From Gemmatimonas sp. (GTDB taxonomy: Bacteria; Gemmatimonadota; Gemmatimonadetes; Gemmatimonadales; Gemmatimonadaceae), in the NCBI GenBank assembly GCA_011390935.1, contig JAABRL010000024.1, positions 1 through 64,000 on the forward strand: a DNA stretch of 64,000 bases, in the 5' to 3' direction. Positions within the stretch are counted from its first letter, which is position 1; each line of letters opens with the position of its first letter. The notes under the pieces were generated by a model, which was not told the origin of the DNA, searched no databases, and was given only the letters and a program-made list of their open reading frames with translations. The position numbers were made by a program, and so were the translations under genes. This document shows positions 3,978 through 24,637 of the stretch, piece by piece.

Positions 3978-5009
3978 ATGCGCCATGTCTATCCATTCAG
4001 TGCCATCGTTGGGCAGGACGAGATGAAGCTCGCCCTGCTCCTGACCGCCGTTGACCCCTCCATTGGCGGGGTCATGGTGTTCGGAGACCGCGGTACGGGC
4101 AAAAGCACCGCAGTGCGCGGGCTGGCCGGCCTGCTGCCGCCCATGACCGTCGTCGCGGGGTGCCGCTATGGCTGCGCCATCCCGTCGGGGGACAGCGGCT
4201 GCGGCTACTGCGACCGCGGACATGCCGGCCACGAGAAGATTCACAAGGCCAAGGCGCCGGTGCCCGTGGTGGATCTGCCACTCGGCGCCACGGAAGATCG
4301 TGTGGTAGGTGCGCTCGACCTCGAGAAGGCGCTCACGACCGGCGAGAAGGCGTTCGAGCCCGGACTGCTCGCGCGTGCGCACCGCGGCTTCCTGTATGTG
4401 GATGAAGTGAACCTGCTCGAAGACCATCTGGTGGATCTGCTGCTCGACGCGGCGGCCACCGGCGAGAATGTGGTGGAGCGCGAGGGCGTGAGCATTCGGC
4501 ACCCGGCGAAGTTCGTGCTCGTGGGCAGCGGCAATCCGGAAGAGGGGGAGCTGCGTCCGCAGCTGCTCGATCGCTTCGGACTCGCGGTCGATGTGAAGAC
4601 GCCCACCGACCTCAGCATGCGCATCGAGGTGATCCGTCGTCGTGATGCGTTCGATCGCGATCCGGATGCGTTCGTGCAGCATTGGGAGAAAGCGGAGAAG
4701 GTGGTGCGCAAGCGCATCGTGAAGGGACGCGAGCATCTCGCGACGGCCACCGTGCCCGATGCCGTTCTGGAGCGTGCGACGGCGCTGTGCGCGCAGCTCG
4801 GCACGGACGGCTTGCGCGGTGAACTCACGCTGCTGCGCACGGTGCGTGCGTACGCGGCCCTCGAAGGGCACGAGGAAGCCACGCTCGACGATCTGCGACA
4901 CATTGCACCGTTGTGCCTGCGGCATCGTCTGCGTCGCAACGTCCTCGATGAAGCGAGCAGCACCACGCGTGTGCAGCGTGCGCTCGACGAACTCTACGCG
5001 GTGGCGTGA
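3978..5009 (+). CDS. bchI: magnesium chelatase ATPase subunit I
   Basis: BchI is the AAA+ ATPase of magnesium chelatase, which with BchD and BchH inserts Mg2+ into protoporphyrin IX. The 343-residue product has Walker A GDRGTGKS at residues 36-43, Walker [10 protein letters not shown] near 139-147, and the family signature [19 protein letters not shown]. An insertion between about residues 60 and 92 carries four cysteines (C62, C66, C75, C78) that could bind a metal. No Shine-Dalgarno is visible; a PpsR-type box lies just before the ATG, so a leaderless or very short leader message is possible. The GTGA overlap with bchD couples the two subunits. Confidence 0.96.
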
Positions 5010-6877: not shown

Positions 6878-6927
6878 AGCAGGATCTGGTCGTGAGCGGA
6901 TTGAATGCGGGGCAGGGCCATGAGTGA
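6874..6927 (+). other. 17-codon mini-ORF bridging bchD and puhE
   Basis: An ATG at 6874 overlaps the bchD stop (ATGA) and opens a frame encoding MKQDLVVSGLNAGQGHE. It stops at 6925-6927, five bases past the puhE ATG at 6920. Such an arrangement could carry terminating ribosomes from bchD to puhE. There is no evidence that the peptide itself has a function. Confidence 0.3.
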
Positions 6928-7810
6928 CGCCACCGCTGCCGGTCGCGAGTCGCTCGACGCGGTCGTTACGCCTGCGCGCCCGTCGCTGCTGGATCGCGTG
7001 CTGCTGCGCGCCTCGACGCAGCAGGTGATTGCGGTGCGCGAGACACCGCTGCGCGTGTTGTTGCGCTCGGTCACCTTCGTGGTGCTGTACTGGTGGTTTG
7101 CGACCGGTGCGATCTTTGCGCTGGAGCGCAGTCCCACGACGCGCGGGGCGGGGCTCATGCTGGCGATTGCGCTAGGTGTGATGGGCGTGGTGTTGCTGGT
7201 GCGCGCGCGCAACGATGCGTCACCGCTGGGTGCGCGGCGCTCGTTTCTCGGGGGCGCGTTCCTGTGGAGTCTGGTGCAGGTGGCGTTCTACGGGGGCTGG
7301 CTGGTGGGCCCGCAGGGGTTCGCCGTGCACGTGCCGGTCCAACCGCCATCGCTGGCATTCGCGACACAAGCGGTGATCAGCATGTTGTGGTACCAGCTGG
7401 CGATGCTCTTCACACTATGGCTGGCGTTCAGCATCACGTGGGACCGCATCAACCGCACGGGATGGTGGGCGCTCGCGGTGTTCTACACCACGCATCAGTT
7501 GGCGTGCATCAGCATCTTCCTCGGCGTCGAGAATCCGGGGCGCGGGTTCTTTCCCACAGATCTCGTGTTCCTCGAGTCCTACTTCGGCCCGGCGCGGAAC
7601 TCGCTCTTCCTGATCTTCTCGGTGGCGGCGCTGCTGGTGCTCACGCTGACGCTCACGATCAAGGCGCTACGTGCCACCATGCCCATGCGTCGGCAGGCGC
7701 TGACGCTGCTCACCGTGCTCGGCACGCTCGGTGTGCTCGAACTGCTGGTGCTGGGGCTCGCGGTGCAGCTGAACTTGTGGGACACGTTCCTGGAGTTCCG
7801 CGGGTACTGA
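6920..7810 (+). CDS. puhE: photosynthetic complex assembly protein PuhE (DUF3623-like)
   Basis: This 296-residue membrane protein resembles PuhE, a factor for assembly and bacteriochlorophyll supply of the photosynthetic reaction centre in purple bacteria. Landmarks are YWWFATGAIFALER in the first membrane segment, the central MLWYQLAMLF, and a C-terminal part with SIFLGVENPGRGFFP, LVFLESYFGPARNSLFLIFS, matching the order of the DUF3623 family. About seven hydrophobic helices are visible. The frame also opens at 6905, but the ATG at 6920 has GGGGCAGGG just upstream. It is not next to puhA here, unlike most clusters, and it is the last photosynthesis gene on this side. Confidence 0.82.
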   Translation: MSDATAAGRESLDAVVTPARPSLLDRVLLRASTQQVIAVRETPLRVLLRSVTFVVLYWWFATGAIFALERSPTTRGAGLMLAIALGVMGVVLLVRARNDASPLGARRSFLGGAFLWSLVQVAFYGGWLVGPQGFAVHVPVQPPSLAFATQAVISMLWYQLAMLFTLWLAFSITWDRINRTGWWALAVFYTTHQLACISIFLGVENPGRGFFPTDLVFLESYFGPARNSLFLIFSVAALLVLTLTLTIKALRATMPMRRQALTLLTVLGTLGVLELLVLGLAVQLNLWDTFLEFRGY

Positions 7811-7841
7811 CTTGCGCGGGGGCGGTTCCGGAACGGCGACA

Positions 7842-7960
7842 GCAACCGAGTTGACCAAGACGGGAAGAATGGATCAAGGATGAACAAGGCGTCGCGGCTC
7901 GGATGTCTTGTTCGGCTTGATCTCTTCTTTCCTGCTTCCCCGGCTCAGTTGCGGTTGCGG
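7842..7960. repeat. dispersed intergenic hairpin repeat, copy 1
   Basis: An imperfect inverted repeat has a left arm running GCAACCGAG..GGGAAGAATGGATCAAGG..GAACAAGG and a right arm that is its near-complement, TTGTTC..CTTGATCTCTTCTTT..CAGTTGCGGTTGC. The arms are about 50 bases with a loop of about 20. It is nearly identical to copy 2 over more than 100 bases, indicating recent tandem duplication. It could also serve as a bidirectional terminator between the convergent puhE and permease genes. Confidence 0.8.
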
Positions 7961-7975
7961 TTTTCGCGGGTCACT

Positions 7976-8140
7976 GCAACGGCAACGGCAACGGCAACGG
8001 CAACCGAGTTGACCAAGGCGGGAAGAATGGATCAAGGATGAACAAGGCGTCGCGGCTCGGATGTCTTGTTCGGCTTGATCTCTTCTTCCCTGCTTCCCCG
8101 GCTCAGTTGCGGTTGCGGTTGCGGTCGCGGTTGCGGTCGT
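7976..8140. repeat. dispersed intergenic hairpin repeat, copy 2, with flanking hexamer runs
   Basis: This is the second tandem copy, with the same core as copy 1. The left end is extended by several GCAACG units (7976-8004) and the right end by the complementary GGTTGC/GGTCGC units (8105-8140), so the hexamer runs add to the stem. The last bases are 13 before the stop codon of the permease at 8154-9461. Confidence 0.8.
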
Positions 8141-8153: not shown

Positions 8154-9461
8154 CTACTCGTGCCGCAGCGCCTCGATCGGATCGAGCCGTGCCGCGCGCG
8201 TCGCGGGCACCATGCCGAAGATGATGCCGATCGCCACGGAGACCGCGACGGCGATTCCGGTGAGCGTATACGGCACGCCCGTGTCCACGTTGAGCAGCAG
8301 CGTGACCACCTTGCCGGTGACCAGGCCGAGCAGGATGCCAACAACGCCGCCGATCCCCGTGAGCGTGGCCGCTTCGACCAGGAACTGCGACAGGATGTCG
8401 CGCTTCGTGGCGCCCACCGCCTTGCGCAGCCCGATCTCGCGCGTGCGACTCGTCACCGAGACCATCATGATCGCCATCACCCCGATGCCGCCTACCAGCA
8501 GCGCCACCCCCGACAGCACGATCATCACCACGAAAAAGACGCCGGTGATGTTGTTGAACGTGTCGAGGATCTGGTCCTGCGTCACCAGATCGAAGGAGTT
8601 GCGGTCGGCCGGGCGCAGACCGCGCGAGGCACGCAGTTCGATCGTGACGGCCTCCTGTGCCGCGGCCACCGTGGTGCCCTCGCGCGGTTTCACCGGAATC
8701 CACAGCGCGCTCGTTTTGTCGACCGTGAACGAACGATCGAGAAACCGGAACGGCACGACACCACCCGTTTCCTGACCGGGCGGTGCGAAGATATTCGCCG
8801 GCTCCTGCCACACCCCGATCACCTGCGCGGGGCGCCCGCCGAGCCGGATCCAGCGGTCGACCGGGTTGATCTCGCCGAAGACACGACGCGCCACATTCTC
8901 CTGCAGGATCACCACCGGCGCGCCCGACATGATCTCCGATCGCAGAAACCACCGACCTGCGATCAGCTCGCCGCCCTGAATGATCGGGAACCCCTCGTCC
9001 GCGCCGAAGATCGCGACGCCCTGCGTGCGCGCGCCCTCGTACTCCACGCGCGCAAACGTCTGCCCCCACAACCCCGCGTACCCCACCTCGGGCAGCCGAC
9101 GCAGGCGCACCGCCTCTTCTTCGCGAATGTCCGGACGGATGCGCACATACGCCGGCGGATTTTGCGGGTTGATCGGCGTCTGCGAGAACACCTTGAACAC
9201 ATAGAACGTGCTCGGCCCCGCCACCTCGATCGTGCTCACGATCTGGTCGCGAATGCCCTGCACGATCGACGCCATCGTCATCACGGTGGCCACGCCGATC
9301 ACCACACCGAGAATCGTGAGCGCCGATCGCAGTCGCGCCGACACGATCGCACGCAACGCGATGCCCACGTTGTGGCGGAACGCGCGCGGGTGCCACATCC
9401 CCACGAGCGCCGCGAGCAGGGCGCGACGCTCGTGCTGCCGATCCTCCGGCTGTCGTGCCAT
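8154..9461 (-). CDS. MacB/FtsX-type ABC permease, sixth of six (subtype B)
   Basis: This 435-residue inner-membrane permease has a first helix near residues 35-60, a large periplasmic MacB-PCD-like domain, and three C-terminal helices. The conserved cytoplasmic signature TSRTREIGLRKAVGATK and the end ATRAARLDPIEALRHE are clear. It is the most diverged subtype B member: it lacks the CDGxxDTC pair seen in permeases two and four. Its ATG overlaps the previous stop by one base (TGATG), so the two probably form a heterodimer. With permease five it lies beyond an intrinsic terminator and may be expressed at a lower level than the upstream genes. The substrate is unknown. Confidence 0.88.
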   Translation of the reverse strand: MARQPEDRQHERRALLAALVGMWHPRAFRHNVGIALRAIVSARLRSALTILGVVIGVATVMTMASIVQGIRDQIVSTIEVAGPSTFYVFKVFSQTPINPQNPPAYVRIRPDIREEEAVRLRRLPEVGYAGLWGQTFARVEYEGARTQGVAIFGADEGFPIIQGGELIAGRWFLRSEIMSGAPVVILQENVARRVFGEINPVDRWIRLGGRPAQVIGVWQEPANIFAPPGQETGGVVPFRFLDRSFTVDKTSALWIPVKPREGTTVAAAQEAVTIELRASRGLRPADRNSFDLVTQDQILDTFNNITGVFFVVMIVLSGVALLVGGIGVMAIMMVSVTSRTREIGLRKAVGATKRDILSQFLVEAATLTGIGGVVGILLGLVTGKVVTLLLNVDTGVPYTLTGIAVAVSVAIGIIFGMVPATRAARLDPIEALRHE

Positions 9462-10705
9462 CAGTCGGGACGCATGGCGGCGATCGGATCGAGCTTCGCG
9501 GCGCGCGATGCGGGATACACCCCGAACAGCACGCCCACGCCCGCGCCGAGCCCGAGCGCCAGCGCGACCGACCAGCCACTCACACGTGCCGGGAGCGGCG
9601 ACACGGCCGAAATGACCTCGGCCAGCAGCCAGCCGCCCAGCACGCCCAGCACGCCGCCTGCAAGCGCCAGCATCACCGACTCGGCGAGAAACTGCTTGCG
9701 CACGTCGGCGGCCGTGGCGCCGAGCGCTTTGCGAATGCCGATCTCGTGCGTGCGCTCGCTCACCGACATGAGCATGATGTTCATGATCACGATGCCCCCC
9801 ACCACGATGCCGATGCCGACCACGGCCGGGATCACGGCGAAGAGCACCTGCGTGAGCTGACGCCAGAAGTCCACCAGCGCGTCCGATGTGGAGAGCGAGA
9901 AGTTGTTCTCCTCGGCAGGACGCAGTCCGCGCGACAGACGCATCGCCTCTTCGGCGCGCAGCATGGCGGGACCAACCTCCTCCGCTTCCGCGAGCTTGAC
10001 CGAAATGGTGGTCGTCGCACGTCGTCCCCAAATGGTTTCGAACGCCGAGATCGGCATGAGCATGAAGGCATCGAACGACTGCCCGAGCACACGCCCCTTT
10101 CGCCCCGTGACCCCGACGACCTCGAAGCGGCGCCCTTGCACACGCACCTCTCGGCCGATCGGGTCCACGTCTTCGAAGAGCTGCTCCGCCACATCCGGGC
10201 CGATGACGATGACGCTGCGGCGTTCGCGCACATCGAGCTCGGAGAGCGGGCGACCCTTCTCGAAACGGTAGTCCTGCACCGTCTGATACTCCGACGTCAC
10301 GCCGAACACGAAGACATCGCCGACGGTGCGATTGCGCCACACCACGTCGGAGGATGGCGTCGGCCAGCCGCTCTGCAGCGAGATCGCTTGCGCGTCCGGG
10401 AGTGCGGCACGCACGGCGGCCACATCGGCCTCACCCACCTTCGGCCATCGCTGGGTGCGACGCACTTCCTCGTCATCGAACAGACCGAGCGAGACCGGCG
10501 AGCGACGCACCTGGAACGTGTTCATGCCCACCATCGCGTCGGCGATGTTCTCCTTCACGTACGCGTTCATGCCGGTGATGATGGCCACGACGGCCACCAG
10601 GAACCCCACGGACACGATGATGCCGAGCAGCGTGAAGAACGACCGCAGCAGGTTGGCGCGCAGTTGCCCGAAGGCGAAGCGCAGCACGTCATCGGAGCGC
10701 ATCAT
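9461..10705 (-). CDS. MacB/FtsX-type ABC permease, fifth of six (subtype A)
   Basis: A 414-residue permease begins MMRSDDVLRFAFGQLRANLL. The first helix (about 25-48, TLLGIIVSVGFLVAVVAIITGM) is followed by VKENIADAMVGMNTFQVRR, the subtype A signature shared with permeases one and three. The C-terminal half has SERTHEIGIRKALGATA and ends SRAAKLDPIAAMRPD. A 109-base gap with a terminator hairpin separates it from permease four, the only long gap among the permeases. The role is inferred to be half of a heterodimeric exporter channel driven by the ATPase at 15870-16694. Confidence 0.88.
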   Translation of the reverse strand: MMRSDDVLRFAFGQLRANLLRSFFTLLGIIVSVGFLVAVVAIITGMNAYVKENIADAMVGMNTFQVRRSPVSLGLFDDEEVRRTQRWPKVGEADVAAVRAALPDAQAISLQSGWPTPSSDVVWRNRTVGDVFVFGVTSEYQTVQDYRFEKGRPLSELDVRERRSVIVIGPDVAEQLFEDVDPIGREVRVQGRRFEVVGVTGRKGRVLGQSFDAFMLMPISAFETIWGRRATTTISVKLAEAEEVGPAMLRAEEAMRLSRGLRPAEENNFSLSTSDALVDFWRQLTQVLFAVIPAVVGIGIVVGGIVIMNIMLMSVSERTHEIGIRKALGATAADVRKQFLAESVMLALAGGVLGVLGGWLLAEVISAVSPLPARVSGWSVALALGLGAGVGVLFGVYPASRAAKLDPIAAMRPD

Positions 10706-10731
10706 TCCCGGAATTTAGCGAACACCGGGAT

Positions 10732-10784
10732 GCGAAAGAAACGAGGCGGCGAGTGGCGCGGTGGTGCGCGGGACTCGCCGCCTC
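10732..10784 (-). terminator. intrinsic terminator inside the exporter operon
   Basis: GAGGCGGCGAGT (10743-10754) and ACTCGCCGCCTC (10773-10784) form a perfect 12-bp stem with an 18-base loop. On the minus strand the stem is followed by GTTTCTTTCG, a T-rich tail. It lies between permease four (ends 10815) and permease five (starts 10705). It should end or attenuate the main exporter transcript. Confidence 0.72.
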
Positions 10785-10809
10785 CCGAGGCGCTCGCCGA
10801 AGGCCTCGG
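10785..10809 (-). other. second hairpin directly before the intrinsic terminator
   Basis: CCGAGGC (10785-10791) pairs with GCCTCGG (10803-10809), a perfect 7-bp stem beginning six bases after the stop codon of permease four. Together with the larger hairpin next to it this makes a double hairpin, which may protect the 3' end of the upstream message. Confidence 0.5.
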
Positions 10810-10814
10810 ACAGC

Positions 10815-12080
10815 CTACTCGTGCCGAAGCGCTTCCACCGGATCGAGCCGTGACGCACGCAGCGCGGGCAGCATGCCGAACGCCACACCAGTCACCGCCG
10901 CGGCCACCAGCGAGGCAATCACGGCGCTCATGGGCAGCTCCGCGGGCAACGAGCTGTAGTTGCGAATGAGCGCCGTGAGGCCGGCGCCCACGATCAACCC
11001 CGATGCCGCGCCGATGAGCGTGAGCGTCGCCGCTTCGACCAGGAACTGCCACAGAATCGTGCCGCGCGTGGCGCCGAGGGCCTTGCGGACGCCAATCTCG
11101 CGCGTGCGCTCCGTGACGGAGATCATCATGATCCCCACGACGCCCACGCCGCCCACGAGGAGCGCGACCGCTGACAGGGCCAGCCCGACGGCGAAGACCG
11201 CGCCGAACAGCTGGTCGAACGTTTCGAGCAGACGTTCCTGCGGGACGATCTCGAAGTTGTTCACCTGCGACGGCTTGAGTCCACGCTGCGCGCGCAGCGA
11301 CGCCACGACATCGTCCACCACGATATCGCGCGCCACACCCGGCCGCGGACGGACTGCGAGCGAGAGTCCGTTGCGGAAGAGACTGAGGTTGCGAATGGCG
11401 CTGTTGAGCGGCACGATCGCGCGTGGCGTGTCTGGACCGCGCCCCTCGAGCGATCGGATGAAGCCGGCCTTGAGGTTGTAGATCCCGATCACGGTAAACG
11501 GGGCGCCGTTGATGCGGATCTGCTTGCCGATCGGGTCGAGCCCGCTGAACAGCTGCGCCCGGAGCGTATCGTTGATGAGCACCACCGGCCGACCCGCGTC
11601 ATGCTCGTTGGCCGTGAAGTTGCGCCCGGGGGCAATGTCGGCCGCCGAGATGCTCAGCCAGTCCGGGCTGTACGCATCAAAGCTGATGCCCTGCAGCACC
11701 TGATCGCGATACGTGAACGTGCCACCGCCACTGATGGAGCCGATCACGCTCTCCACGCTCGGCAGCCCCTGCAGCGTCTTCCACTCGTTGAAGCGGATGG
11801 GTGGATTCTTGCGGTCGGGGCACGTGTCGTCGGTGCCGTCGCACGCCTGAAAGCCGATGCTGCGGCGGAACACCTGAAAGGTCTCCGCCCCGATGTTCTC
11901 GAGATCCTGCTCGAACGAACGACGGATGCCATTCACGGCGGCCGCCATCGTGACCACCACGAACACGCCGATGGCCACACCGGCGATCGTGAGGAACGCG
12001 CGCACCTTGTTCGTACGCAGCGATTCGAGCGCGATGCCGACGCCCTCGAACACCAGAAAAAACCGCGTCAGGAAGTTCAC
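10815..12080 (-). CDS. MacB/FtsX-type ABC permease, fourth of six (subtype B)
   Basis: A 421-residue permease. The first helix is at about residues 28-50 (FLTIAGVAIGVFVVVTMAAAVNGI). The periplasmic domain opens with the cysteine pair C80/C87 in CDGTDDTC and then NPPIR, also present in permease two, suggesting a periplasmic disulfide. The C-terminus carries TERTREIGVRKALGATR and SRLDPVEALRHE. It starts three bases after permease three and ends just before the double hairpin. It is likely the heterodimer partner of permease three. Confidence 0.9.
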   Translation of the reverse strand: MNFLTRFFLVFEGVGIALESLRTNKVRAFLTIAGVAIGVFVVVTMAAAVNGIRRSFEQDLENIGAETFQVFRRSIGFQACDGTDDTCPDRKNPPIRFNEWKTLQGLPSVESVIGSISGGGTFTYRDQVLQGISFDAYSPDWLSISAADIAPGRNFTANEHDAGRPVVLINDTLRAQLFSGLDPIGKQIRINGAPFTVIGIYNLKAGFIRSLEGRGPDTPRAIVPLNSAIRNLSLFRNGLSLAVRPRPGVARDIVVDDVVASLRAQRGLKPSQVNNFEIVPQERLLETFDQLFGAVFAVGLALSAVALLVGGVGVVGIMMISVTERTREIGVRKALGATRGTILWQFLVEAATLTLIGAASGLIVGAGLTALIRNYSSLPAELPMSAVIASLVAAAVTGVAFGMLPALRASRLDPVEALRHE

Positions 12081-12083
12081 GGG

Positions 12084-13322
12084 CTACTCCTGGCGCAGGG
12101 CCGTGATCGGATCGAGGCGCGACGCTCGGCTTGCGGGATACGCACCCGCCGCCACGCCCACGCCGGCGCCCATCACCAGGGCCACGCCGATTGCCCACGG
12201 CGCCACGGCTGCCGGAAGCGGCGTGAACGTGGCGACCAGTTGAGCCAGTCCCAGCCCCAGTCCGATTCCGATGGCGGCACCGAACACGCTGAGCGTGGCT
12301 GCTTCGGCGAGAAACTGTGCCATGATGTCACGTCGCCGTGCACCGAGCGCCTTCCGCACGCCGATCTCACGCGTGCGTTCCGCCACGGCCACCAGCATGA
12401 TGTTCATGATCACCATCGCGCCGACCACCAGACTGATGGCGGGCAGGGCGGTGCCAAACAGAATGAGGCGTCCCTTGAGCTGATCGAGAAACGCGAAGGC
12501 GGCGTCCTGGGTGACCAGGCCGAAGTTGTCCGGATCACCGGGACCCAGGCGCCGATGCGGCCGCAGCGCTTCGCGCGCCGTCTCCATGTACTCGGCGATC
12601 TCCTCGGTGGTGCCGGCCTTCACGATGAACGACCCGATATCGCCCCTGGGGCGCAGCACACGCGCCATGGGACTCGTGATCGGTGCGATGGCGAGGCGGT
12701 CGAGCGAGAAACCGAACACGCTACCCTGTTCCTCCATCACGCCGACCACCGTGTAGGGCGTCCCAGCCACACGCAGTTCACGGCCCAGCGGATCGAGCCC
12801 TTCGAAGAAGTGATTGGCCACCTCGGTGCCGATGACCAGCACACGCGCGCCGGCGCGCACCTCCTGCTCCACGAAGGCGCGCCCCTGCTCGATCACATAC
12901 GCCTTGATGTCGAAGTACGACGCGTCCGTGGCCACCGCCTGCACCTGACGCGGACGGGCGCGGGCATTCGAGGCGTACAGGAATGACTCGTTCACCACCG
13001 CCGACTGCACACCGTCGGGCAGCGCCTGTCGCACGACCTGCGCGTCGAGGGGCATGAGCAGCGGACTGCGCAACTGATCCCGCGTATCGCGTCCGCGCCC
13101 CTGCGGACCCACCGACGCGAAGCGTCGCAGCGTGAACGTATTCGTGCCGATCAGCGCGCTCGCGAAGTCCTCCTCGACGTACTTCGCCATCCCTTCCACA
13201 ATCGAGACGACGGCGATGAGGAACATCACGCCGATCATCACTCCGAGCAGCGTAAAGCCGCTCTTGAGCTTCTGAACGCGAATCTGATTGAGGGCGAGCT
13301 TGAAGGCTTCGAGAAAGGACAC
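12084..13322 (-). CDS. MacB/FtsX-type ABC permease, third of six (subtype A)
   Basis: A 412-residue permease begins MSFLEAFKLALNQIRVQKLKS. Its N-terminus is very similar to permease one (IRTQKLKS.FTLMGV), indicating tandem duplication of an A-B pair. The first helix is followed by YVEEDFASALIGTNTFTLRR. The signature AERTREIGVRKALGARR and the end SRLDPITALRQE are present. Gaps to its neighbours are nine and three bases, so it is co-transcribed with permeases two and four. Confidence 0.9.
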   Translation of the reverse strand: MSFLEAFKLALNQIRVQKLKSGFTLLGVMIGVMFLIAVVSIVEGMAKYVEEDFASALIGTNTFTLRRFASVGPQGRGRDTRDQLRSPLLMPLDAQVVRQALPDGVQSAVVNESFLYASNARARPRQVQAVATDASYFDIKAYVIEQGRAFVEQEVRAGARVLVIGTEVANHFFEGLDPLGRELRVAGTPYTVVGVMEEQGSVFGFSLDRLAIAPITSPMARVLRPRGDIGSFIVKAGTTEEIAEYMETAREALRPHRRLGPGDPDNFGLVTQDAAFAFLDQLKGRLILFGTALPAISLVVGAMVIMNIMLVAVAERTREIGVRKALGARRRDIMAQFLAEAATLSVFGAAIGIGLGLGLAQLVATFTPLPAAVAPWAIGVALVMGAGVGVAAGAYPASRASRLDPITALRQE

Positions 13323-13331
13323 GCGGGCGGG

Positions 13332-14567
13332 TTATTCGTGACGGAGTGCAACCACGGGGTCGAGCCGTGAGGCGCGGAGCGCAGGCAGCATACCAAAAAG
13401 CACGCCAGTTATGACGCTCGCCGCAAGGGCTGACACCACGGCCAGCGGCGGCACCGAGGCCGCGATCGGTGTCGCTGAGCGAATCGCGAGGGCGCCAAGC
13501 CACCCGCCAACCAGCCCCACGACCACGCCGATGCCGGTGAGCGTGATCGCCTCCACGAGGAACTGCCACAGAATCGTGGCTCGAGTGGCCCCCAGTGCCT
13601 TGCGCACCCCGATCTCTCGCGTCCGCTCGGTCACCGAAATCATCATGATGGCCACCACACCCACGCCGCCGACCAGCAGGCCCACGGCCGAGAGTGCGAT
13701 CATCACGAGGAAGAACACGCCGAAGATGCTGTTGTACGTCTCGAACAGCTTGTCCTGCGTGATGATGGCGAACGACGACTCTTCCGTGGGACGCTGCCCC
13801 CGAATGCCGCGCAGAGTGGCCGTGACCTGATCCACCATCACGTCACGATCCACGTTCGGGCGCGGCTTCACCGCGAGCCCGATGTTGTTCATGCGGGCTC
13901 CGATGTTGCGAACCGCCGACATGACGGGAATCACGGCCTTGGGTCGCTCCCCGCCGCTCAGGAACGACGCATTGTCTGCATACACGCCGATGACACGAAA
14001 CGGCTTGCCGTTGAGCTGGATCTCGCGATCGATCGGGTCGGTCTGGTCGAACAGTTGCTCGGCCATGATCGTGTTGATCACGGCGACGCGGGCGCCGCTT
14101 TCCGCTTCAGCAGCGGTGAAGGCTCGCCCTGGCCACACATCGGGGGCACCGATCTCGGGCCATTCGGCCGAATACGCCTCGATGGACGACTGCTGCAGGC
14201 GCGTGCCGCGATAGCTCACGTCGGCGCTCCAGTCGAGCCGCACGCCAACGGCAAGCGCCTCGGGCAGCGCCTGCAACGCCTTCACTTCACTCATGCGAAT
14301 GGGCGGATTGGACAACCACTTGCAGGTATCGCCGCTGCCATCGCAGTTCTCGAACGAGATCGGGTAGCGCGAGACGAAGAAGGTGGTCGGACCGGCCGAC
14401 TCGAACTCCTTGGCCACACTCATGTTGATGCCGTGCACGGCCGCGGCGATCATCACGACCACGAACACGCCGATCGCCACGCCCATGATGGTCAGAGCGG
14501 CGCGGACGCGGTTGCCGCGCAGCGAGCCGATGGCAATGACCACACCTTCTGCAATCGTGGAGAACAT
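13332..14567 (-). CDS. MacB/FtsX-type ABC permease, second of six (subtype B)
   Basis: A 411-residue permease. The N-terminal helix spans about residues 23-47. C75 and C82 lie in CDGSGDTC, followed by NPPIRMSE, as in permease four. The C-terminal region has TERTREIGVRKALGATR and SRLDPVVALRHE. Permeases two and four are close over their whole length, while permease six is more distant. It starts six bases after permease one, consistent with stoichiometric A-B pairing. Confidence 0.9.
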   Translation of the reverse strand: MFSTIAEGVVIAIGSLRGNRVRAALTIMGVAIGVFVVVMIAAAVHGINMSVAKEFESAGPTTFFVSRYPISFENCDGSGDTCKWLSNPPIRMSEVKALQALPEALAVGVRLDWSADVSYRGTRLQQSSIEAYSAEWPEIGAPDVWPGRAFTAAEAESGARVAVINTIMAEQLFDQTDPIDREIQLNGKPFRVIGVYADNASFLSGGERPKAVIPVMSAVRNIGARMNNIGLAVKPRPNVDRDVMVDQVTATLRGIRGQRPTEESSFAIITQDKLFETYNSIFGVFFLVMIALSAVGLLVGGVGVVAIMMISVTERTREIGVRKALGATRATILWQFLVEAITLTGIGVVVGLVGGWLGALAIRSATPIAASVPPLAVVSALAASVITGVLFGMLPALRASRLDPVVALRHE

Positions 14568-14573
14568 GTGGTG

Positions 14574-15848
14574 CTATTCCTGCCGAAGGGCGGTGATGGG
14601 ATCGAGGCGCGCCGCGCGACTGGCCGGATACACACCGGAGATGATGCCCACGCCCGCGCCCACGAGGACACCAAGGGCGACGGACCACGGCGCGACTACC
14701 GTGGGGAGTGGCGTGACCTGTCGCATCACGAAGGCGAGGAAGACACCGAGGCCCACGCCGGCAATGGCGCCGACGGCACCAAGCGTGGACGACTCGACGA
14801 GAAACTGCGCGAGTACGTCACGCCGACGTGCGCCCAGCGCCTTGCGCAAGCCGATTTCCGAGGTGCGTTCGGCAACGGCCACCAGCATGATGTTCATGAT
14901 CACGATCGCGCCCACCACCAGGCCGAAGGCGGGCAGCGCCACGCCCGCAAGCACCAGGTAACCTTGGAGTTTGTCCCAGAAGGCGAGGGCGCTGTCGGCG
15001 GTTTGCAGCGCGAAATCATCTTTTTGCGACGGGCGCAGTTGGTGCTGTGTGCGCATGACCTGACGCGTCGCTTCCATCGCTTCCGTCATCTCCGCCTCGG
15101 AGGGCGACTGGATGAGGACGGCATCAATCATGCTGGGCTCGGCGTTGAACAACCGCTTGGCTGGCGCCTGCAACGGCACGTACGCCACGTTGTCGAACGA
15201 CATGCCAAACGCGCTGCCCTGCGATTCCGTGATGCCGATGACGGTGTACGGAAGGCCGGCAATGCGCACCTCGCGCCCGATCGGATTGAGCGACGGGAAG
15301 AGCCGTTCCACAACGTCCGGGCCGATCACGACCACGGGCGTGCCCATCGCGTATTCCTGCGACGTGAACAGGCGGCCATCGGTGACTTCGAGGGATTTGA
15401 TGTCGAAGAAGGCGCCTTCCACGCCCGTGACGCGCACCGTTCGCGGACCGCCGCCGTAGCGCGACATCATGCTGAGCTGGGCATCCGCGATGACCGCGTA
15501 CCGCGTGCCCTCGGGCAATGCCTCGATCACCGCCGGCACCTCGTAGTCACGCAGGCGCTTGCGACGCTGGTACTCGCGCCATGTCGCGGCATCGGTGTCG
15601 CCGATGTTGATGTTCGGGCGATGCCGCAGCTCGAAGCTGTTGATGGCGATCAGCTTGCCGACGAGATCGTTCTGCAGGTACTTGCCCATGCCGTTCACGA
15701 TGGACACGACGGCAATGAGGAACATCACGCCGATGCACACCCCCATGAGCGTGAAGGCGCTCTTGAGTTTCTGCGTGCGGATCGTGCCGAGGGCGAGTCG
15801 GATGGCTTCGAAGAGGTTCACAGCGAGCGGGGGCAGGGGACGGGCCAT
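14574..15848 (-). CDS. MacB/FtsX-type ABC permease, first of six (subtype A)
   Basis: A 424-residue permease immediately follows the ATPase gene (21-base gap). A GTG at 15824 beginning VNLFEAIRLALGTIRTQKLKS would align better with permease three, so the ATG at 15848 may be slightly early. The first helix (TLMGVCIGVMFLIAVVSIVNGMG) is followed by YLQNDLVGKLIAINSFELRH, the subtype A pattern. The C-terminal half has AERTSEIGLRKALGARR and ends SRAARLDPITALRQE. Confidence 0.9.
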   Translation of the reverse strand: MARPLPPLAVNLFEAIRLALGTIRTQKLKSAFTLMGVCIGVMFLIAVVSIVNGMGKYLQNDLVGKLIAINSFELRHRPNINIGDTDAATWREYQRRKRLRDYEVPAVIEALPEGTRYAVIADAQLSMMSRYGGGPRTVRVTGVEGAFFDIKSLEVTDGRLFTSQEYAMGTPVVVIGPDVVERLFPSLNPIGREVRIAGLPYTVIGITESQGSAFGMSFDNVAYVPLQAPAKRLFNAEPSMIDAVLIQSPSEAEMTEAMEATRQVMRTQHQLRPSQKDDFALQTADSALAFWDKLQGYLVLAGVALPAFGLVVGAIVIMNIMLVAVAERTSEIGLRKALGARRRDVLAQFLVESSTLGAVGAIAGVGLGVFLAFVMRQVTPLPTVVAPWSVALGVLVGAGVGIISGVYPASRAARLDPITALRQE

Positions 15849-15869: not shown

Positions 15870-16694
15870 TCAGTCGTGCGCGACTTTCGTGGTGGCGTGG
15901 GCAATGCCCACCCGATCCACAAACTTCTCGCGACGCTCATCGCTTTCCACGATGCCGTCTCGCAACACCACCACGCGTCGTGCGTGGGCCGCGATGTCGG
16001 GCTCGTGGGTGACCATGACAACCGTCTGGCCCTGGCGGGACAACTCCTCGAACACCTTCATGATTTCCTGCGAGGTGCTCGAGTCGAGGTTACCCGTGGG
16101 TTCGTCGGCCAGCAGAATGGACGGACGGTTCACGAGCGCGCGGGCAATCGCCACACGCTGGCGCTGACCGCCGGACAGTTCGTTCGGGCGGTGATGCAGA
16201 CGGGGGCCGAGCGCCACCGAGTCGAGCGCTTCCGTGGCGCGACGCTTGCGCTCATCGGCCGGAATGCCGGCGTACACAAGCGGCAGCTCCACGTTCTGCA
16301 GGGCCGTGGCGCGGGGCAGCAGGTTGAACGTCTGGAACACGAACCCGATTTCCTTGTTGCGCACACGCGCCAGCGCGTCGTCGCTCATGGCCGAAACAAG
16401 TTGCCCATTGAGCCAGTACTCGCCGCCGTCGGGCGAATCGAGACAGCCGATGAGATTCATGAGCGTGGACTTGCCCGAGCCGGATGGTCCCATGATGGCC
16501 ACGTACTCGTTGCGCCCGATCGCGAGATCGACGCCACGCAAGGCGCGCACGATTTCACCGCCCATGTCGTATTCGCGCTTGAGGCCGCGCGCTACGATGA
16601 CCCAGTCCGCGCCAGGGGCGGTGCCAGGAGCGGTGACCACCGCGCGGCGTTCGCCGGTGGTGCTGATGCCGATGTCGTCGACGGTGTGGCTCAC
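15870..16694 (-). CDS. MacB-type ABC transporter ATPase (the only ATPase of the operon)
   Basis: A 274-residue nucleotide-binding protein of the LolD/MacB group. Walker [10 protein letters not shown] is at residues 69-77, Q-loop at [14 protein letters not shown] signature LSGGQ at 173-177, Walker [13 protein letters not shown] from 193, and the H-loop in VTHEPD. It has an extended N-terminus of about 30 residues. It sits four bases after the adaptor gene and before six permease genes, none of which carries its own ATPase domain, so it probably powers all the pairs. Confidence 0.93.
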
Positions 16695-16697
16695 AGG

Positions 16698-17975
16698 TCA
16701 GCTCTTGGGCTTGGTGTCGATGGGTACGGCAGTCTTCACCAACGCGCCGTCCCGGAGATCGCGGATCGCCTGATAGGTGCCCGCCACGATGTTCTCGCCA
16801 GCCTGCAAACCGGTCAGCACTTCGAAGTGCCGCTCACCGGCGATCCCGACCTTTACGGGGCGGAAGGTGACCGTGTTGTCCGTGCCCACCACGAACACGC
16901 CCTCGATATCCGTCCGGCCGATCTGCTTGACCGGTGCAGCACGTCCCGCCGGCAAGGCGGTGTCCCCACTGGCCAGCGCGGAATCCTCGCGCACCGTGAG
17001 CGCGATGATCGGAATGCTGATCACTCGGGTCCGCGTGTCCGTCACGATCTTGGCCGTGGCCGAAAAATCCGGGCGCGTTTCCGCCGGCGGGTTGAGCAGT
17101 TCGATCTTCACTTCGAAGTCGACCGCCTGATCGGTGGCCGCCGAGGTGGCGGCAGCCCCCGCCGTGGAGCTGAGTGAGATCTCGACCACACGACCCACGA
17201 AGGTGGTGTCGCTGAAGGCATCGATCTGCACCACGGCCGAGTCGCCGACCTTCACGCGCGCCACATCGGTCTCGTCCACCTTCACCTTGGTCTCGAGCAC
17301 GCTCATGTCGGCCACCGTGAGCAGGGTGGCGGCGTCACGATTGAGCGTGCCCATGATCGCGGTTTCGCCTTCCTGCACGAGCAGTCGTGTGATCTTGCCA
17401 TCCATCGGCGCCACGATCGTCGTGCGATTGAGCGCCTGCCGGGCGTCGCGCAGGTTGGCTTCGGACTGCGCGACGGAGAAGCGCGCGGCCTCGAGCAGCG
17501 CCTCGTTCACTTCCTGCTGCGTCAGCGCCTGTTCCACCTGTTCCACCGACACGAGCGTGGGCGTGGCCTTCTGGATCTGCAGCAGCCGCTCGTAGTTGCG
17601 CTTGGCCTGAATGCTGTTGGCACGCGACTGCGCTTCCTGTGCCTTGGCCGACGCGAGCGCCGCTTCCGACCGCTGCACCTGTGCCTGCGGCTGCTCCGGG
17701 TCGATCTGCAGCAGGAACTGACCGCGCTTGACGATGTCGCCCTCCTTCACGGCGAGGCGCACGATGCGTCCCGTCACGTCGGCGCTGACGTCCACCTTGG
17801 TACGCGGCTGAATCTTGCCACTGGCCGTGACCGAGGCGATGAGGTCACGCGCCTCCACCGCTTCGATGCGCACCTCGGTGGCCTTGGGGCCGCCGCGTTT
17901 GGCGCCGGCCCACGCGAGGCCGGCCACGCCGACGATGGCTACACCGATGATGCCGAACTTCACCGCTTTGGTCAT
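16698..17975 (-). CDS. MacA-like periplasmic adaptor (membrane fusion protein)
   Basis: A 425-residue HlyD/RND-type adaptor with an N-terminal membrane anchor (residues 5-23, FGIIGVAIVGVAGLAWAGA). The barrel-sandwich half SGKIQPRTKVDVSADVTGRI is followed by an alpha-hairpin (about 90-190, Gln/Ala-rich) and the returning half MDGKITRLLVQEGETAIMG. A beta-barrel region continues to the C-terminus. It would bridge the FtsX/MacB-type permeases and the TolC-like outer-membrane channel encoded just upstream. The gene gap to the ATPase is three bases. Confidence 0.92.
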   Translation of the reverse strand: MTKAVKFGIIGVAIVGVAGLAWAGAKRGGPKATEVRIEAVEARDLIASVTASGKIQPRTKVDVSADVTGRIVRLAVKEGDIVKRGQFLLQIDPEQPQAQVQRSEAALASAKAQEAQSRANSIQAKRNYERLLQIQKATPTLVSVEQVEQALTQQEVNEALLEAARFSVAQSEANLRDARQALNRTTIVAPMDGKITRLLVQEGETAIMGTLNRDAATLLTVADMSVLETKVKVDETDVARVKVGDSAVVQIDAFSDTTFVGRVVEISLSSTAGAAATSAATDQAVDFEVKIELLNPPAETRPDFSATAKIVTDTRTRVISIPIIALTVREDSALASGDTALPAGRAAPVKQIGRTDIEGVFVVGTDNTVTFRPVKVGIAGERHFEVLTGLQAGENIVAGTYQAIRDLRDGALVKTAVPIDTKPKS

Positions 17976-19594: not shown

Positions 19595-20311
19595 CTACCG
19601 TGGCACGTCGTCGCGGATCGCTTCGAGGCCGCGCGCCGGTACCGTCACCCGGAGCACCCGCCCGTCCGCGTCCGTCCATAAGACACGCCGAGCGTCCGAA
19701 TCGTCGATCACCCATCGCGAGGCCGTCAGGCGCACCCCCGCCACGGCGATCGTATCGACCGCTGCGTCGAGCGTCACCCGCACGTCCCGCTCCCGGTTTT
19801 CCATAGGGGCCAGTGCCCGCACCGTGAAGTCGGTGCGACGCCCACGGTCGATCAGCAGCAGGGCGGCCTGATGGAAGGACTCCGCTTCCAGCACCACCGA
19901 GCCACTCGGCAGCAGGTACTCGCGCGCGGCCTCGCCCCGGTCGGTGCGCGCCAGCGTCGCAAAGCGACCTCGCGTGCGCTGTCCGCCGAGCCGTAGCACC
20001 AGCGTGGCCCCCGAGCGCACCTCGGCGGAATACCGGAGCGGGGCGCCAGCCGAATCGGTCTCGAGCCGGGTGGCGATGCGCCGATCCCCGATCGCGGACT
20101 CGGCACGCAGCTCGAACGCCACCCCCTCGGCCGACCCAACGCGTCGCAGGCTGAACTGCTCGCGGCCCACACGCTCGCCTTCCCGCAGGATGGAGAAGCT
20201 GCCCACGTCGAGTGGCTCCGGTTGCAGCGGTGCGGTACGGGAACCGGTGATGAGCCCGAGGGCCAGCAGCAGCGGGGGCAGACCGAGGAGGGACAGACGG
20301 GGCAAGGCCAT
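19595..20311 (-). CDS. exported protein of unknown function
   Basis: The 238-residue product starts MALPRLSLLGLPPLLLALGL, a signal peptide or N-terminal anchor. The rest is predicted beta-rich: FSILREGERVGREQFSLRR, then AIGDRRIATRLETDSAGAPLRYSAEVR, resembling proteins that carry a beta-barrel or lipocalin-like fold, but I cannot assign a family. The ATG at 20311 is preferred over the longer frame to 20359 because of the signal peptide. It lies upstream of the TolC gene in the same direction with a 122-base gap, so it may or may not belong to the exporter operon. It is divergent from the sensor kinase gene. Confidence 0.7.
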   Translation of the reverse strand: MALPRLSLLGLPPLLLALGLITGSRTAPLQPEPLDVGSFSILREGERVGREQFSLRRVGSAEGVAFELRAESAIGDRRIATRLETDSAGAPLRYSAEVRSGATLVLRLGGQRTRGRFATLARTDRGEAAREYLLPSGSVVLEAESFHQAALLLIDRGRRTDFTVRALAPMENRERDVRVTLDAAVDTIAVAGVRLTASRWVIDDSDARRVLWTDADGRVLRVTVPARGLEAIRDDVPR

Positions 20312-20398
20312 CCCGTGAAATCTAGCGGCCGCCGGACTCGACTCCGAGAGGCGGGGCATGGGCGGCGCGGTGTCGCGCGGTGGAAGGCGGCGGTCGCG

Positions 20399-23300
20399 AT
20401 GCTAACTTGGGCCTCAGTCTCCCGTCTCCGGTCCGCCGCCTCTCACGCCTCCTTCGTGACGGAATCCGCGCCTCCCACACATCGCCCTCGCCTTCGCTGG
20501 CCACGCCTCTGGGTGGGCGGGGCGCTGATGGCGTTGCTGGCGCTGGTGCGGTGGCTGCGCGCCGAGGATGTCGCGTCGCTGGTGCTCGCCGCGATCGGGC
20601 TGGCGGTCACCATCGTGGCGGTGCGTTCGCTCCGGCAGCCGCGGCACTGGGCGGTGCTCGCCATGGGCGCGCTCTCGGTGGCGCTCGGCGTGGCGGTCGC
20701 CGAGACCCGCGCCTTGCGGGAGCTGGAGCAGGCCGGAGAGGCGTGGGCGCTGGCCGCGCGCAATCGTGATGTTGCCCGGGTTGCGGATGGCATCGAGGAG
20801 GCGGCACAGCGCGCGATGGCGGCGGCGATGGGGGCGGCGCGCACCGGCATTGCGGTCGCGCCGCAGGTCAACGGCGCCGAAACCGGCCTGGTCGTCTTTG
20901 AAGACGGCCGTCCGTCGGCACGTGCGGGGCAGTCGCGCGTGCAGCTGGCGCCCAGCCGCGAGGGGGTGCGGCTGGTGCGATCGCTCTTCTACACGGCGTT
21001 GGTGGCCAGCAGTACCGCACCCGAAACGAGCGGGCGTGGAGACTCGGGGCTGCGCACGGAGCTGCGTCGCACTGCGGTCGCCACCGTGCTGCTTACCGCG
21101 TCGCCACCGGCGGATCGGTTTGCGCGACCACTGGTCCCGTCGCTCGCGCCGGCCGATGTTGCCCCTTCGATCCGCCTCGATCCGTCGCTGGGCTACCCGC
21201 TCGATCCGTCCGATTTCACCCGGCGCGTCGTGCGTGCCGCTCCCGATACCGCCGAGATACTCGTGGTCTCCGCCATACCGCGGTCGCTCGACGAGGCGCG
21301 GCTGTCGGGACTGCAGCGCGCGCGGGTGCGCACGATTGTTCCGTTGGCACTGGCGGCCGTGTTCCTGTTGGTGGTGGGGTGGCGCCGACCGGCGCGTCTG
21401 CTCGAGCGGCTGCTCACGATTGCGGCGCTGCTCATTGCCATCGCCCTCACGCCGTTCGGTGCGCTCTCGAACGTGTCGCCGCTCTTCAACGCGGCCAACT
21501 ACTTCTCGCCCGTGGGCGGGCCGCTCACCGCGAACATCGCCGCCTTCACGTTGACCGGGCTGCTGGCGCTGTTGGCGCTCTTTCGCGTGCTGCGCAGTAC
21601 ACGGCTGGCTGAATCGCATCGCCTTGCGCTCGCACTCGTGGTCGGCATCGCGGCGCTTGGTCCGTTCGCGCTGCGCGACCTGGCGCGAGGCATCGCGTTC
21701 CCGCCGAGTGGATCGAGCGTGGGACTCTGGATTGCGTGGCAGCTCGCCATCGCGCTCGCGGCGGCGGGAATTCTGATCGCGGGCGCCAGCGCCGGACAGG
21801 TGGTGCTGGGTCGGCGTCGCGGTTTGCCCGCGGCGTTCGGTCCCGTACTGGCCGCCGTGGCGGCGCTCGCCGCTCCGCCGCTCTGGCAGGCGCCGGGCGC
21901 GTGGCCCGCGTGGTACCCGGTGCTGTGGATCGCCGCCATCGGCGCACTCGCCTTCGTGCGACGGGGTCGTGCGTTGGTGGCGGCCGTGGCGTTTGTCGCC
22001 GGCTGCGGTGCCGTCACACTCACGTGGGGCGCGACCACGCGCACGCGCATGCAGCTGGCCGAGCGCGATGTGCCGCGACTTGGCGCGACCGACATGAGTG
22101 CGTATCCGCTGCTCGGCCGCTTCACGGACGCGTTGGCGTTGGAGCTGCGCGCTCCCGACCGAGAACGTCTGCTCGAGCGCTACGCAGCGAGCGATCTCGC
22201 GCTGGCCGGCTACCCGGCGCGACTGTCACTGTGGGCAGGGCCGTCGCTGGACACGCCGATCGCCACGATCGCCCTGGCCAACATCGTGGACGCCGATGCG
22301 GTGCAGCGTGGCATGGCGCGACTCGTGCGTGAGTCGGACACCCCCATGATTCGCGCCGCCGACGACGGGCCCTTCACGATGCTGGTGGCAGCCGTCCCAT
22401 TTGGCGGCGACGTCGTGGCAACCATCGCCGTGCCGCCGCGCACCTGGCTGTTGCCACCCGATCCGTTCACTCGCCTGACCGGTATCGCGGCTACGCCCGA
22501 CCGGGCGCCGCCGTATCGGCTCTCGCTCGGCGCCCCGTTGGTCGGAGTGGCCACATCGCTTCCGGAGCGGCTGTCCTGGCGACGCGACGGCACGATCATG
22601 AGTGCCGATGCCGAGGTGGGAAGCGAGGGGATGCGGCGTCGCGCGCACGTCGAGGTGGAGCTGCGCGGCTTCGACGCCCTTGCACCACGCGGCGCGCTGC
22701 TGGTGCTGCTCGACGTGGGCATCGTGCTGCTGATTTGGGGGGCGAGTGCGATGGCGGACGGCGGGTTGTGGCGATGGCTGCGATGGGAGCGCACGCGGTG
22801 GCGGCGTTCCTACCGCTCCCGCCTGTCCGTGGCGCTCCTGACGTTCTTTCTCGCGCCCGCGGCGGCGTTTGCGTTGTGGGAAGCGTATCGCCTACGCGAA
22901 GACGATCGCAACTCGCGCGAACTGCTCGTGCGCGAAGCCCTGCGGGTGCTCGATTTGCCGAACGGGACGCCGAGTGAACAGAGCGCCGGTCTGCTCACGA
23001 CGGCGTCCCTCGCCACGTTGTCGAATGCAGTGGGCGGACCGCTGTTCGCGTACCGTGACGGTGTGCTGTCACAGGCGAGCGATCTGGTGCTCGCCGCACT
23101 CGCGCCGTTCGGCACGCTGCTGCCCGCGGACGTACCCTCAGGTGCGATCGCGGAGCGGCAGCCACTGGATGCCTCCGATGCGCCCGTGTTTGCGCGCTTC
23201 GTGCCGCTGGCCACACGGAGTGGTCTGGTGGGCTTTCGCCCCACCGTGGGGCCGGAAGGCATGCCGCTGGTGCTGGCCACGGCCGCACGCGGCGACGAGT

Positions 23301-24637
23301 TCGCGCTCGATGCCCGTCGGGCCGACCTGGCGGTGCTCGTGCTGCTGGTGTCGGTGAGCGGTGTGTTGGCCGCGTTGTGGCTGAGCGGCGTCGCCGCGCG
23401 ACAGCTCGCGCGCCCGATCGGCTCGCTGCGCGACGCCGCGCTCGCGATTGCCGATGGCCGGCCCCTGCCGCCGCTCGACGCGATGCCGCCGGCGGAGTTC
23501 GTGCCTGTGTTCGGTGCGTTCGCACAAATGGCGACTGATCTCTCCACGAGTCGCGCCGCGCTCGAGGAAGCACAGCGTCGTACCGCGGCCGTGTTGCGCG
23601 AAGTCGCCAGCGGGGTGGTGGCCATTCGACACGACGGCACGGTGCTGCTGGCGAATCCGCGCGCCTCGGAGCTGCTGGGCTTGGCGCTCACGCCGGGACA
23701 GCTGGTGCTGGGCGCGGTCGATGGTGCGCTGCCGCTCGTGGCACCGCGCGTGATCGACTTCCTCGAGCGCCCCGATCGCGCGCTCAGCGACTTCGATCTC
23801 ACACTGCCCGCGAGCGGACGACAGCTGCGCGCGTCGCTCACTCGACTTCCCGGCGGTGCCGTCCTGACGCTTGACGACGTAACCGAGCTCGCGACGGCGC
23901 AGCGCGTGCTTGCGTGGGGCGAAATGGCGCGGCAGGTCGCGCACGAAATCAAGAATCCGCTCACACCCATTCGTCTCGGCGTGCAGCATCTGCGACGCGC
24001 CTGGCGCGATGGCCGCGTCGATTTCGGCGACATCCTCGACACGAACGTCACGCGCATTCTCGCCGAGATCGATCATCTCGATGAAATCGCGAAAGCCTTC
24101 AGTCGCTATGGCAGTGCACCGGCTGAACGTGCACCGGCCGAACCGACGGACATCGCGCGCGCCACACTCGACGTGGTCACACTCGAGCGCATGGGGGAAG
24201 GGGACGTCACGTGGACGCTGGAGGTGCTGTCCCCCGATCAGGTGCACGCTGCCGTGACGTCGGCGTCGGGTCAGGCGCCAGACGCCGCCACTCCGCATGT
24301 GTACGCCTTTGCGCGCGCCGACGAGTTCAAGGAAGTCGTGCTCAATCTGCTCGAAAATGCGCGACTGGCCAACGCGACCGAGGTGCGCTGCACCATCCGC
24401 ACCGAGGGCGAGGCCGTGATCGTGCGCGTGCACGACGATGGCGTGGGCATGGCGCCCGACGTCATGGGGCAGATCTTCCAGCCGCACTTTTCGACCCGCA
24501 CAAGCGGAAGCGGACTGGGGCTGGCCATCACCCGTCGGCTGCTGGAAGGGTGGGGCGGCACGATCACTGTCGAGAGCGCGCCGGGAGCCGGCAGCACCTT
24601 CACGATCACGCTGCGCCACGCCCCGGTTCCGGATTAG
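20399..24637 (+). CDS. very large NtrY-like membrane sensor histidine kinase
   Basis: A 1412-residue histidine kinase, about twice the length of ordinary NtrY. Three N-terminal helices are followed by a periplasmic-type region (about 95-310) and a block of around eight helices. A second extracytoplasmic region, two more helices, a third sensor region and a last helix precede a HAMP-like segment. Then come a PAS domain (LREVASGVVAIRHDGTVLLANPRASELLGL), the HisKA box AHEIKNPLTPI, and the ATPase boxes NLLENAR, DDGVGM and TSGSGLGLAITRRL. No response regulator is adjacent; the NtrX-like regulator at 46307 is the only candidate in the window. The start could instead be the GTG at 20456. Confidence 0.88.
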   Translation: MLTWASVSRLRSAASHASFVTESAPPTHRPRLRWPRLWVGGALMALLALVRWLRAEDVASLVLAAIGLAVTIVAVRSLRQPRHWAVLAMGALSVALGVAVAETRALRELEQAGEAWALAARNRDVARVADGIEEAAQRAMAAAMGAARTGIAVAPQVNGAETGLVVFEDGRPSARAGQSRVQLAPSREGVRLVRSLFYTALVASSTAPETSGRGDSGLRTELRRTAVATVLLTASPPADRFARPLVPSLAPADVAPSIRLDPSLGYPLDPSDFTRRVVRAAPDTAEILVVSAIPRSLDEARLSGLQRARVRTIVPLALAAVFLLVVGWRRPARLLERLLTIAALLIAIALTPFGALSNVSPLFNAANYFSPVGGPLTANIAAFTLTGLLALLALFRVLRSTRLAESHRLALALVVGIAALGPFALRDLARGIAFPPSGSSVGLWIAWQLAIALAAAGILIAGASAGQVVLGRRRGLPAAFGPVLAAVAALAAPPLWQAPGAWPAWYPVLWIAAIGALAFVRRGRALVAAVAFVAGCGAVTLTWGATTRTRMQLAERDVPRLGATDMSAYPLLGRFTDALALELRAPDRERLLERYAASDLALAGYPARLSLWAGPSLDTPIATIALANIVDADAVQRGMARLVRESDTPMIRAADDGPFTMLVAAVPFGGDVVATIAVPPRTWLLPPDPFTRLTGIAATPDRAPPYRLSLGAPLVGVATSLPERLSWRRDGTIMSADAEVGSEGMRRRAHVEVELRGFDALAPRGALLVLLDVGIVLLIWGASAMADGGLWRWLRWERTRWRRSYRSRLSVALLTFFLAPAAAFALWEAYRLREDDRNSRELLVREALRVLDLPNGTPSEQSAGLLTTASLATLSNAVGGPLFAYRDGVLSQASDLVLAALAPFGTLLPADVPSGAIAERQPLDASDAPVFARFVPLATRSGLVGFRPTVGPEGMPLVLATAARGDEFALDARRADLAVLVLLVSVSGVLAALWLSGVAARQLARPIGSLRDAALAIADGRPLPPLDAMPPAEFVPVFGAFAQMATDLSTSRAALEEAQRRTAAVLREVASGVVAIRHDGTVLLANPRASELLGLALTPGQLVLGAVDGALPLVAPRVIDFLERPDRALSDFDLTLPASGRQLRASLTRLPGGAVLTLDDVTELATAQRVLAWGEMARQVAHEIKNPLTPIRLGVQHLRRAWRDGRVDFGDILDTNVTRILAEIDHLDEIAKAFSRYGSAPAERAPAEPTDIARATLDVVTLERMGEGDVTWTLEVLSPDQVHAAVTSASGQAPDAATPHVYAFARADEFKEVVLNLLENARLANATEVRCTIRTEGEAVIVRVHDDGVGMAPDVMGQIFQPHFSTRTSGSGLGLAITRRLLEGWGGTITVESAPGAGSTFTITLRHAPVPD

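Follow-up and report, generated by a model that had tools for sequence, protein, structure and literature searches.

Related ABC Transport Systems

In published descriptions, type VII (MacB-type) ATP-binding cassette (ABC) proteins are not channels through the inner membrane but mechanotransmitters, which act from the periplasmic side to drive substrate into TolC (PMC5985334). Several described systems resemble the exporter operon reported here, which lies in a 64,000-nucleotide stretch of Gemmatimonas sp. DNA (the window; contig JAABRL010000024.1 of assembly GCA_011390935.1) and features six MacB/FtsX permeases, alternating between types A and B, and a single ATPase. MacAB-TolC is similar in its permease fold, its MacA-like adaptor and TolC, and it gives the best profile and structure matches, however, in MacB a single chain holds both permease and ATPase, and two such chains work as a homodimer. 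VarACDEF from Vibrio cholerae is like one A-B unit of the array and consists of the permeases VarD and VarE, a separate ATPase (VarF), an adaptor and an outer-membrane channel; it has one permease pair, however, and VarF is not described as serving any other pair or pump (PMC5595328). The gene content and the co-duplication at the Gemmatimonas locus fit a putative split pump of the VarDEF kind, in which two different permeases would act together with one separate ATPase. LolCDE is also a heterodimer of two permeases with four transmembrane (TM) helices each and a dimer of a separate ATPase, but it has no adaptor or TolC, extracts lipoproteins, and is matched by the array permeases over their C-terminal part only. 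The ADOP proteins (TIGR03434) likewise contain duplicated MacB-like permeases, however, the duplicates are fused in one chain, and all six array permeases fall far below the ADOP cut-off.

Family profiles place the operon accordingly. The MacA-like adaptor and the TolC-family protein encoded in it are those of a tripartite MacAB-TolC-like system. Scores against MacB proper (the PRK10535 equivalog) are 142–174 with a cut-off of 966, and the ATPase is separate; those against the LolC/E equivalog are at most 62 with a cut-off of 362, and the operon includes an adaptor and TolC.

The sharing of an ATPase has its precedent in MsmX and MsmK, where the product of one gene energises multiple sets of permeases, some of them unlinked and with no ATPase of their own (PMC7658222). 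These are CUT1 sugar importers, however, and the sharing proposed below is based on gene losses. Multitask ATPases were reported in 2020 as occurring, to that date, exclusively in CUT1 sugar importers (PMC7658222). The literature search, which was incomplete in its coverage, returned importer cases only for shared ATPases and none for MacB-type exporters; within the same coverage no description was found of a co-duplicated permease-pair array on one ATPase, or of one ATPase whose gene is placed reciprocally at two tripartite pumps. The individual parts of the system are already known, and what appears new within this coverage is the pair array on one ATPase and the reciprocal ATPase placement.

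The locus is best explained as a split MacAB-TolC-type exporter with co-duplicated A-B heterodimers, in which one multitask ATPase would serve exchangeable mechanotransmission permeases, including a permease, C, that is encoded in an unlinked operon (probability roughly 0.68). A broader claim, held with somewhat less confidence though still on the favourable side, is that in Gemmatimonadota a full set of MacB-type exporters runs on one multitask ATPase; this set would comprise up to four A-B heterodimers per duct, the unlinked pump and detached pairs.

The Permease Array

The operon spans 20359 to 8154 on the minus strand and consists of ten co-directional genes, which encode a secreted protein, a TolC-like protein, an adaptor, an ATPase and six permeases. 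The nine pump genes are as follows, with the evidence for each in parentheses (ORF, open reading frame).

17991..about 19640, minus strand, TolC-like outer-membrane factor (profiles; comparison with L039, the locus of the nearest relative)
16698..17975, minus strand, MacA-like periplasmic adaptor, HlyD/RND_mfp (profiles)
15870..16694, minus strand, single ABC ATPase, like LolD and the MacB nucleotide-binding domain (profiles, motifs)
14574..15848, minus strand, permease A1 (ORF, alignment, profiles, tree)
13332..14567, minus strand, permease B1 (ORF, alignment, profiles, tree)
12084..13322, minus strand, permease A2 (ORF, alignment, profiles, structure model, tree)
10815..12080, minus strand, permease B2 (ORF, alignment, profiles, structure model, tree)
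9461..10705, minus strand, permease A3 (ORF, alignment, profiles, tree)
8154..9398, minus strand, permease B3, MacB_PCD and FtsX (start picked by alignment)

The order A1-B1-A2-B2-A3-B3 is strictly alternating, and the six permease ORFs are all complete and fill 8154–15848. The start of B3 is most likely at 9398, a longer GTG-initiated ORF (8154–10340) being merely open frame. The TolC-like ORF as listed reaches 19715 and overlaps the next gene; its true start lies further in. The intergenic gaps are mostly 3–21 bases, with exceptions of 109 bases before A3 and 62 bases before B3. The same nine pump genes are found in the same order in the nearest relative of the same genus, Gemmatimonas sp. 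S07.Bin148. The catalytic motifs of the ATPase are all intact (Walker A GPSGSGKS, signature LSGGQ, Walker B LLADEPT, and the H-loop).

Duplication of the A-B Pair

Pairwise identities are 38–49% within A and 37–54% within B, and 27–34% between A and B. A first-pass annotation of the sequence had described six MacB/FtsX permeases alternating as A-B, and the ORFs, profiles and identities agree with it. A maximum-likelihood tree of 48 proteins, rooted on the single permease C, recovers an A clade with an ultrafast bootstrap of 100 and a Shimodaira–Hasegawa-type approximate likelihood ratio test value of 98, and a B clade with values of 100 and 99; both clades occur in every bootstrap tree examined. 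The permeases thus group as A+A+A and B+B+B and not as A+B neighbours, with full support, the outcome that the annotation had named as support for pair duplication. The branching of A and B is mirrored as ((1,2),3): within the family pair 1 is sister to pair 2, and pair 3 is older. A wider tree of 205 proteins is concordant, again with separate A and B clades. Pairs 1, 2 and 3 form distinct orthologous clades family-wide, and pair 3 extends across two families. Pair 3 branches outside the single-pair systems of other orders. Either the duplication is ancient and copies were later lost, or pair 3 has evolved faster; neither is ranked above the other.

The comparison covered 80 genomes, mostly metagenome assemblies from one phylum studied in depth; the loci themselves were read for many of them, and some counts come from contigs that end inside the locus. 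Loci of the class feature permeases arranged as AB, ABAB, ABABAB or ABABABAB. Those that bear an ATPase hold 1–4 pairs, a lower bound where contigs end, and the Gemmatimonadaceae relatives likewise have 1–4 pairs per ATPase. Loci in other orders of the class mostly have just one pair, so the ancestral unit was probably one A-B pair with an adaptor and TolC, resembling VarACDEF (PMC5595328). Further joint A+B duplications gave a fourth pair in L111, L112 and L081, and an independent duplication occurred in the sister family f2. An apparent A-A arrangement in L083 was rejected as an artefact of overlapping ORFs. Detached A-B pairs, with no ATPase, adaptor or TolC within ~8 kb, were found in at least six genomes (L097, L110, L117, L123, L124, L125), one of which is assembled as a single contig. 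Outside the phylum, where plasmids only were searched, 36 records were returned, usually with one match each and at <38% identity.

Across these relatives gains, losses and detachments involve whole pairs. Together with the separate clades and the mirrored branching, this makes the repeated duplication of an A-B pair, also put forward in the first-pass annotation, well supported. It also bears on a reading in which any A could assemble with any B, giving up to nine dimers in place of three fixed pairs. A mirror-tree comparison of 11 genomes singled out no neighbours, and the A and B interfaces (the N-terminal/TM1 and TM2–4 regions) are conserved across paralogues, both of which would suit free assembly; however, neighbours duplicate, vanish and detach together, a behaviour that simple segment duplication would also produce. 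Free assembly is considered unlikely.

Placement of the ATPase Gene

A second operon, cOMF-cMFP-C, encodes a TolC protein, an adaptor and the single MacB-like permease C. In the window genome it is found, without an ATPase, on a separate contig (C45). All 26 sampled genomes of Gemmatimonadaceae (f1) contain exactly one ATPase of this clade, adjoining the array, and the C operon is without an ATPase in each of the 20 f1 genomes in which it was read. The same arrangement, with the ATPase at the array and none in the C operon, is found in three genomes of family f7 and one of family f4. The placement is reversed in f5, a family of another order: the arrays have no ATPase (17 of 17 read), and in 13 of the 13 genomes with both loci read the ATPase gene stands between cOMF and cMFP of the C operon. 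Two ATPase copies are present in 20 of 26 f2 genomes; where the loci were read, as for many of these, one copy lies at each site. Five f2 genomes have lost or broken the array ATPase while the permeases are complete: G158, G196 and G190 have a clean loss of the gene, G160 has a frameshift in it, and in G169 a deletion spans the signature region. The C-operon ATPase is intact in four of these five, and in G190 it is near a broken C-locus contig. G195 was rejected as an ATPase-free genome, because a run of N at the C locus interrupts its ATPase.

Approximately 41 genomes have both operons with one intact motor gene, at either operon, and among one-copy genomes the ATPase always sits with the array or with the C operon. 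The ATPase tree broadly tracks the families, and the array or C position switches along it. There is no fixed linkage between the ATPase gene and the array. The reciprocal placement, the losses, the ATPase-free C operon and the detached pairs suggest that the ATPase acts in trans for several permeases. The first-pass annotation had assigned a single ATPase to the array, which is borne out by the lack of a further ATPase at the window locus and by the one copy of this clade per Gemmatimonadaceae genome. Its proposal of one motor for the pairs is also the preferred reading here, but its scope was too narrow, as the sharing seems to reach the unlinked second pump.

Unrelated ATPases of the genome might instead serve the ATPase-free operons and pairs, in which case the moving ATPase gene would be mere rearrangement. 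Dozens of ABC ATPases per genome are candidates for such a role, but the remaining ATPases of the MacB/LolD type identified in the window genome adjoin their own permeases, and ATPases of the same clade are found at either or both operons, with single copies always at one of them. The involvement of unrelated ATPases is therefore improbable, and the sharing of one motor is preferred.

Two further MacB-like permease loci in the window genome (G000), L209 on contig C87 and L210 on contig C81, have no ATPase on the stretch read. They are possible extra clients of the shared motor.

Fold and Conservation of the Permeases

All six permeases score far over the Pfam cut-offs for PF12704 (MacB_PCD) and PF02687 (FtsX), and they have the type VII plan of the MacB/FtsX proteins, a periplasmic core domain between TM1 and TM2 followed by a C-terminal FtsX domain. 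An AlphaFold2 model of A2, with a mean predicted local distance difference test score (pLDDT) of 82, features a long stalk helix, a mixed periplasmic domain and three C-terminal helices; its top structural matches are MacB (5gko) and a pneumococcal MacB-like transporter (5xu1). The model of B2 has a similar fold, and the B family profile matches MacB 5gko with an E value of 4.7e-77. The coupling motif RT.EIG.RKA.GA is retained in all six permeases. Identity among the six is highest in the coupling region (54–93%) and lowest in the periplasmic domain (19–44%), a pattern that fits what would be expected with a fixed motor contact and a varying choice of substrate.

The common domain plan and coupling motif of all six permeases, and the structural closeness of A2 to MacB and 5xu1, argue against a reading in which one pair is the pump and the others use the ATPase for signalling, as BceAB- or FtsEX-like regulators, sensors or assembly factors. 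MacB-family proteins have such roles elsewhere (PMC5985334) and the array has a large, divergently oriented histidine kinase gene as a conserved neighbour, but this division of labour seems quite remote. The number of pairs differs among genomes, as ordinary tandem duplication of little function would allow, but with every ORF intact, pairs 1–3 kept as orthologous clades family-wide and pair 3 kept in two families, it is very improbable that the extra pairs are redundant or decaying.

Proposed Mechanism

In the preferred reading of one shared motor, the inner-membrane part would be an A-B permease heterodimer with a dimer of the separate ATPase, and A1B1, A2B2 and A3B3 would be alternative heterodimers that share the ATPase, the adaptor and TolC. 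Each permease dimer is predicted to bind two ATPase copies through the coupling motif. By analogy with MacB, the two ATPase subunits would close on ATP beneath the permease dimer (PMC5985334, PMC8277102), and the closure would be transmitted to the periplasmic domains, driving periplasmic substrate into the shared adaptor-TolC duct. The diverged periplasmic domains may take different substrates; the first-pass annotation had likewise proposed them as possible determinants of substrate choice, in line with the divergence pattern. The same ATPase would drive in trans the unlinked C operon, where C is presumably a homodimer, and the detached A-B pairs of some relatives. Different permeases could be served by one generic motor surface, since each coupling helix contacts solely its own ATPase subunit (PMC8277102). 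The first-pass annotation had pictured one motor feeding three alternative channels, which is probably the wrong picture because MacB-type proteins are described as periplasmic mechanotransmitters (PMC5985334).

Several points weigh against this reading. Single gene losses in metagenome assemblies may be assembly errors, but the loss pattern recurs across families and in single-contig assemblies. With dozens of ABC ATPases in each genome, another one could serve an ATPase-free operon. The mirror-tree distance correlation, from only 11 genomes, does not favour A_i-B_i over other pairings, so mixed pairs or homodimers may also occur. The order A-B-B in family f7 (L132, L223, L224) is the sole true departure from the alternation, and the 1:1 rule is not absolute. 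A conservation gradient such as that of the six permeases is common in single transporters too, and the 109- and 62-base gaps before A3 and B3 allow separate regulation of pair 3.

If the sharing is true, several envelope exporters draw their energy from one ATPase as a hub, whose motor surface has to stay generic as the periplasmic domains diverge, and the loss of one small gene should silence several pumps together. The multitask-motor principle would then extend from sugar importers to mechanotransmission exporters, and the system would offer a clear test of permease recognition by type VII ABC motors. The natural series of 1, 2, 3 and 4 pairs, with or without a local ATPase, would allow a study of how a pump repertoire expands without new motors.

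Neighbouring Genes and Repeats

Further features within the operon and next to it are as follows.

10743..10784, minus strand, strong 18-nt inverted repeat, within the 109-nt gap between B2 and A3
19595..20359, minus strand, conserved secreted protein, DUF6134-like (profile score 27.8 bits, cut-off 27.9)
20222..24637, plus strand, large divergent membrane histidine kinase with HAMP, PAS, HisKA and HATPase domains (ORF start uncertain)

The inverted repeat is possibly a repetitive extragenic palindromic (REP) element or an attenuator, and at this gap the regulation of pair 3 might be separated from that of pairs 1 and 2. A scan of promoters and terminators returned sites no more frequently than in shuffled sequence. 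The DUF6134-like gene is apparently the first gene of the operon. It was found by profile in 79 loci, including arrays without an ATPase, and is a neighbour of the array in much of the class; its product is a putative accessory protein of the exporter. The histidine kinase is kept at this place across families, also in much of the class, and is followed at 24647–26458 by a gene for a protein with two kinase-like domains.

The end of a photosynthesis gene cluster (bchI, bchD and a DUF3623 gene; window 3978–7810) adjoins the B3 end of the array. The same junction is found in many Gemmatimonas relatives, at L039, L044, L045, L048, L049, L051, L052, L054, L057 and L112, which suggests one ancestral insertion site for a horizontally acquired photosynthesis cluster. 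The idea that the exporter is part of photosynthesis was rejected because relatives throughout the class carry the array, most of them without adjoining photosynthesis genes. The interval between the DUF3623 gene and B3 (7832–8120) features two tandem copies of a repeat, 158 nt apart and 97% identical over 131 nt. The repeat is dispersed and imperfectly palindromic, with ~20 further sites in the window genome and one or none in two congeners, and it is like a miniature inverted-repeat transposable element (MITE) or a REP element.

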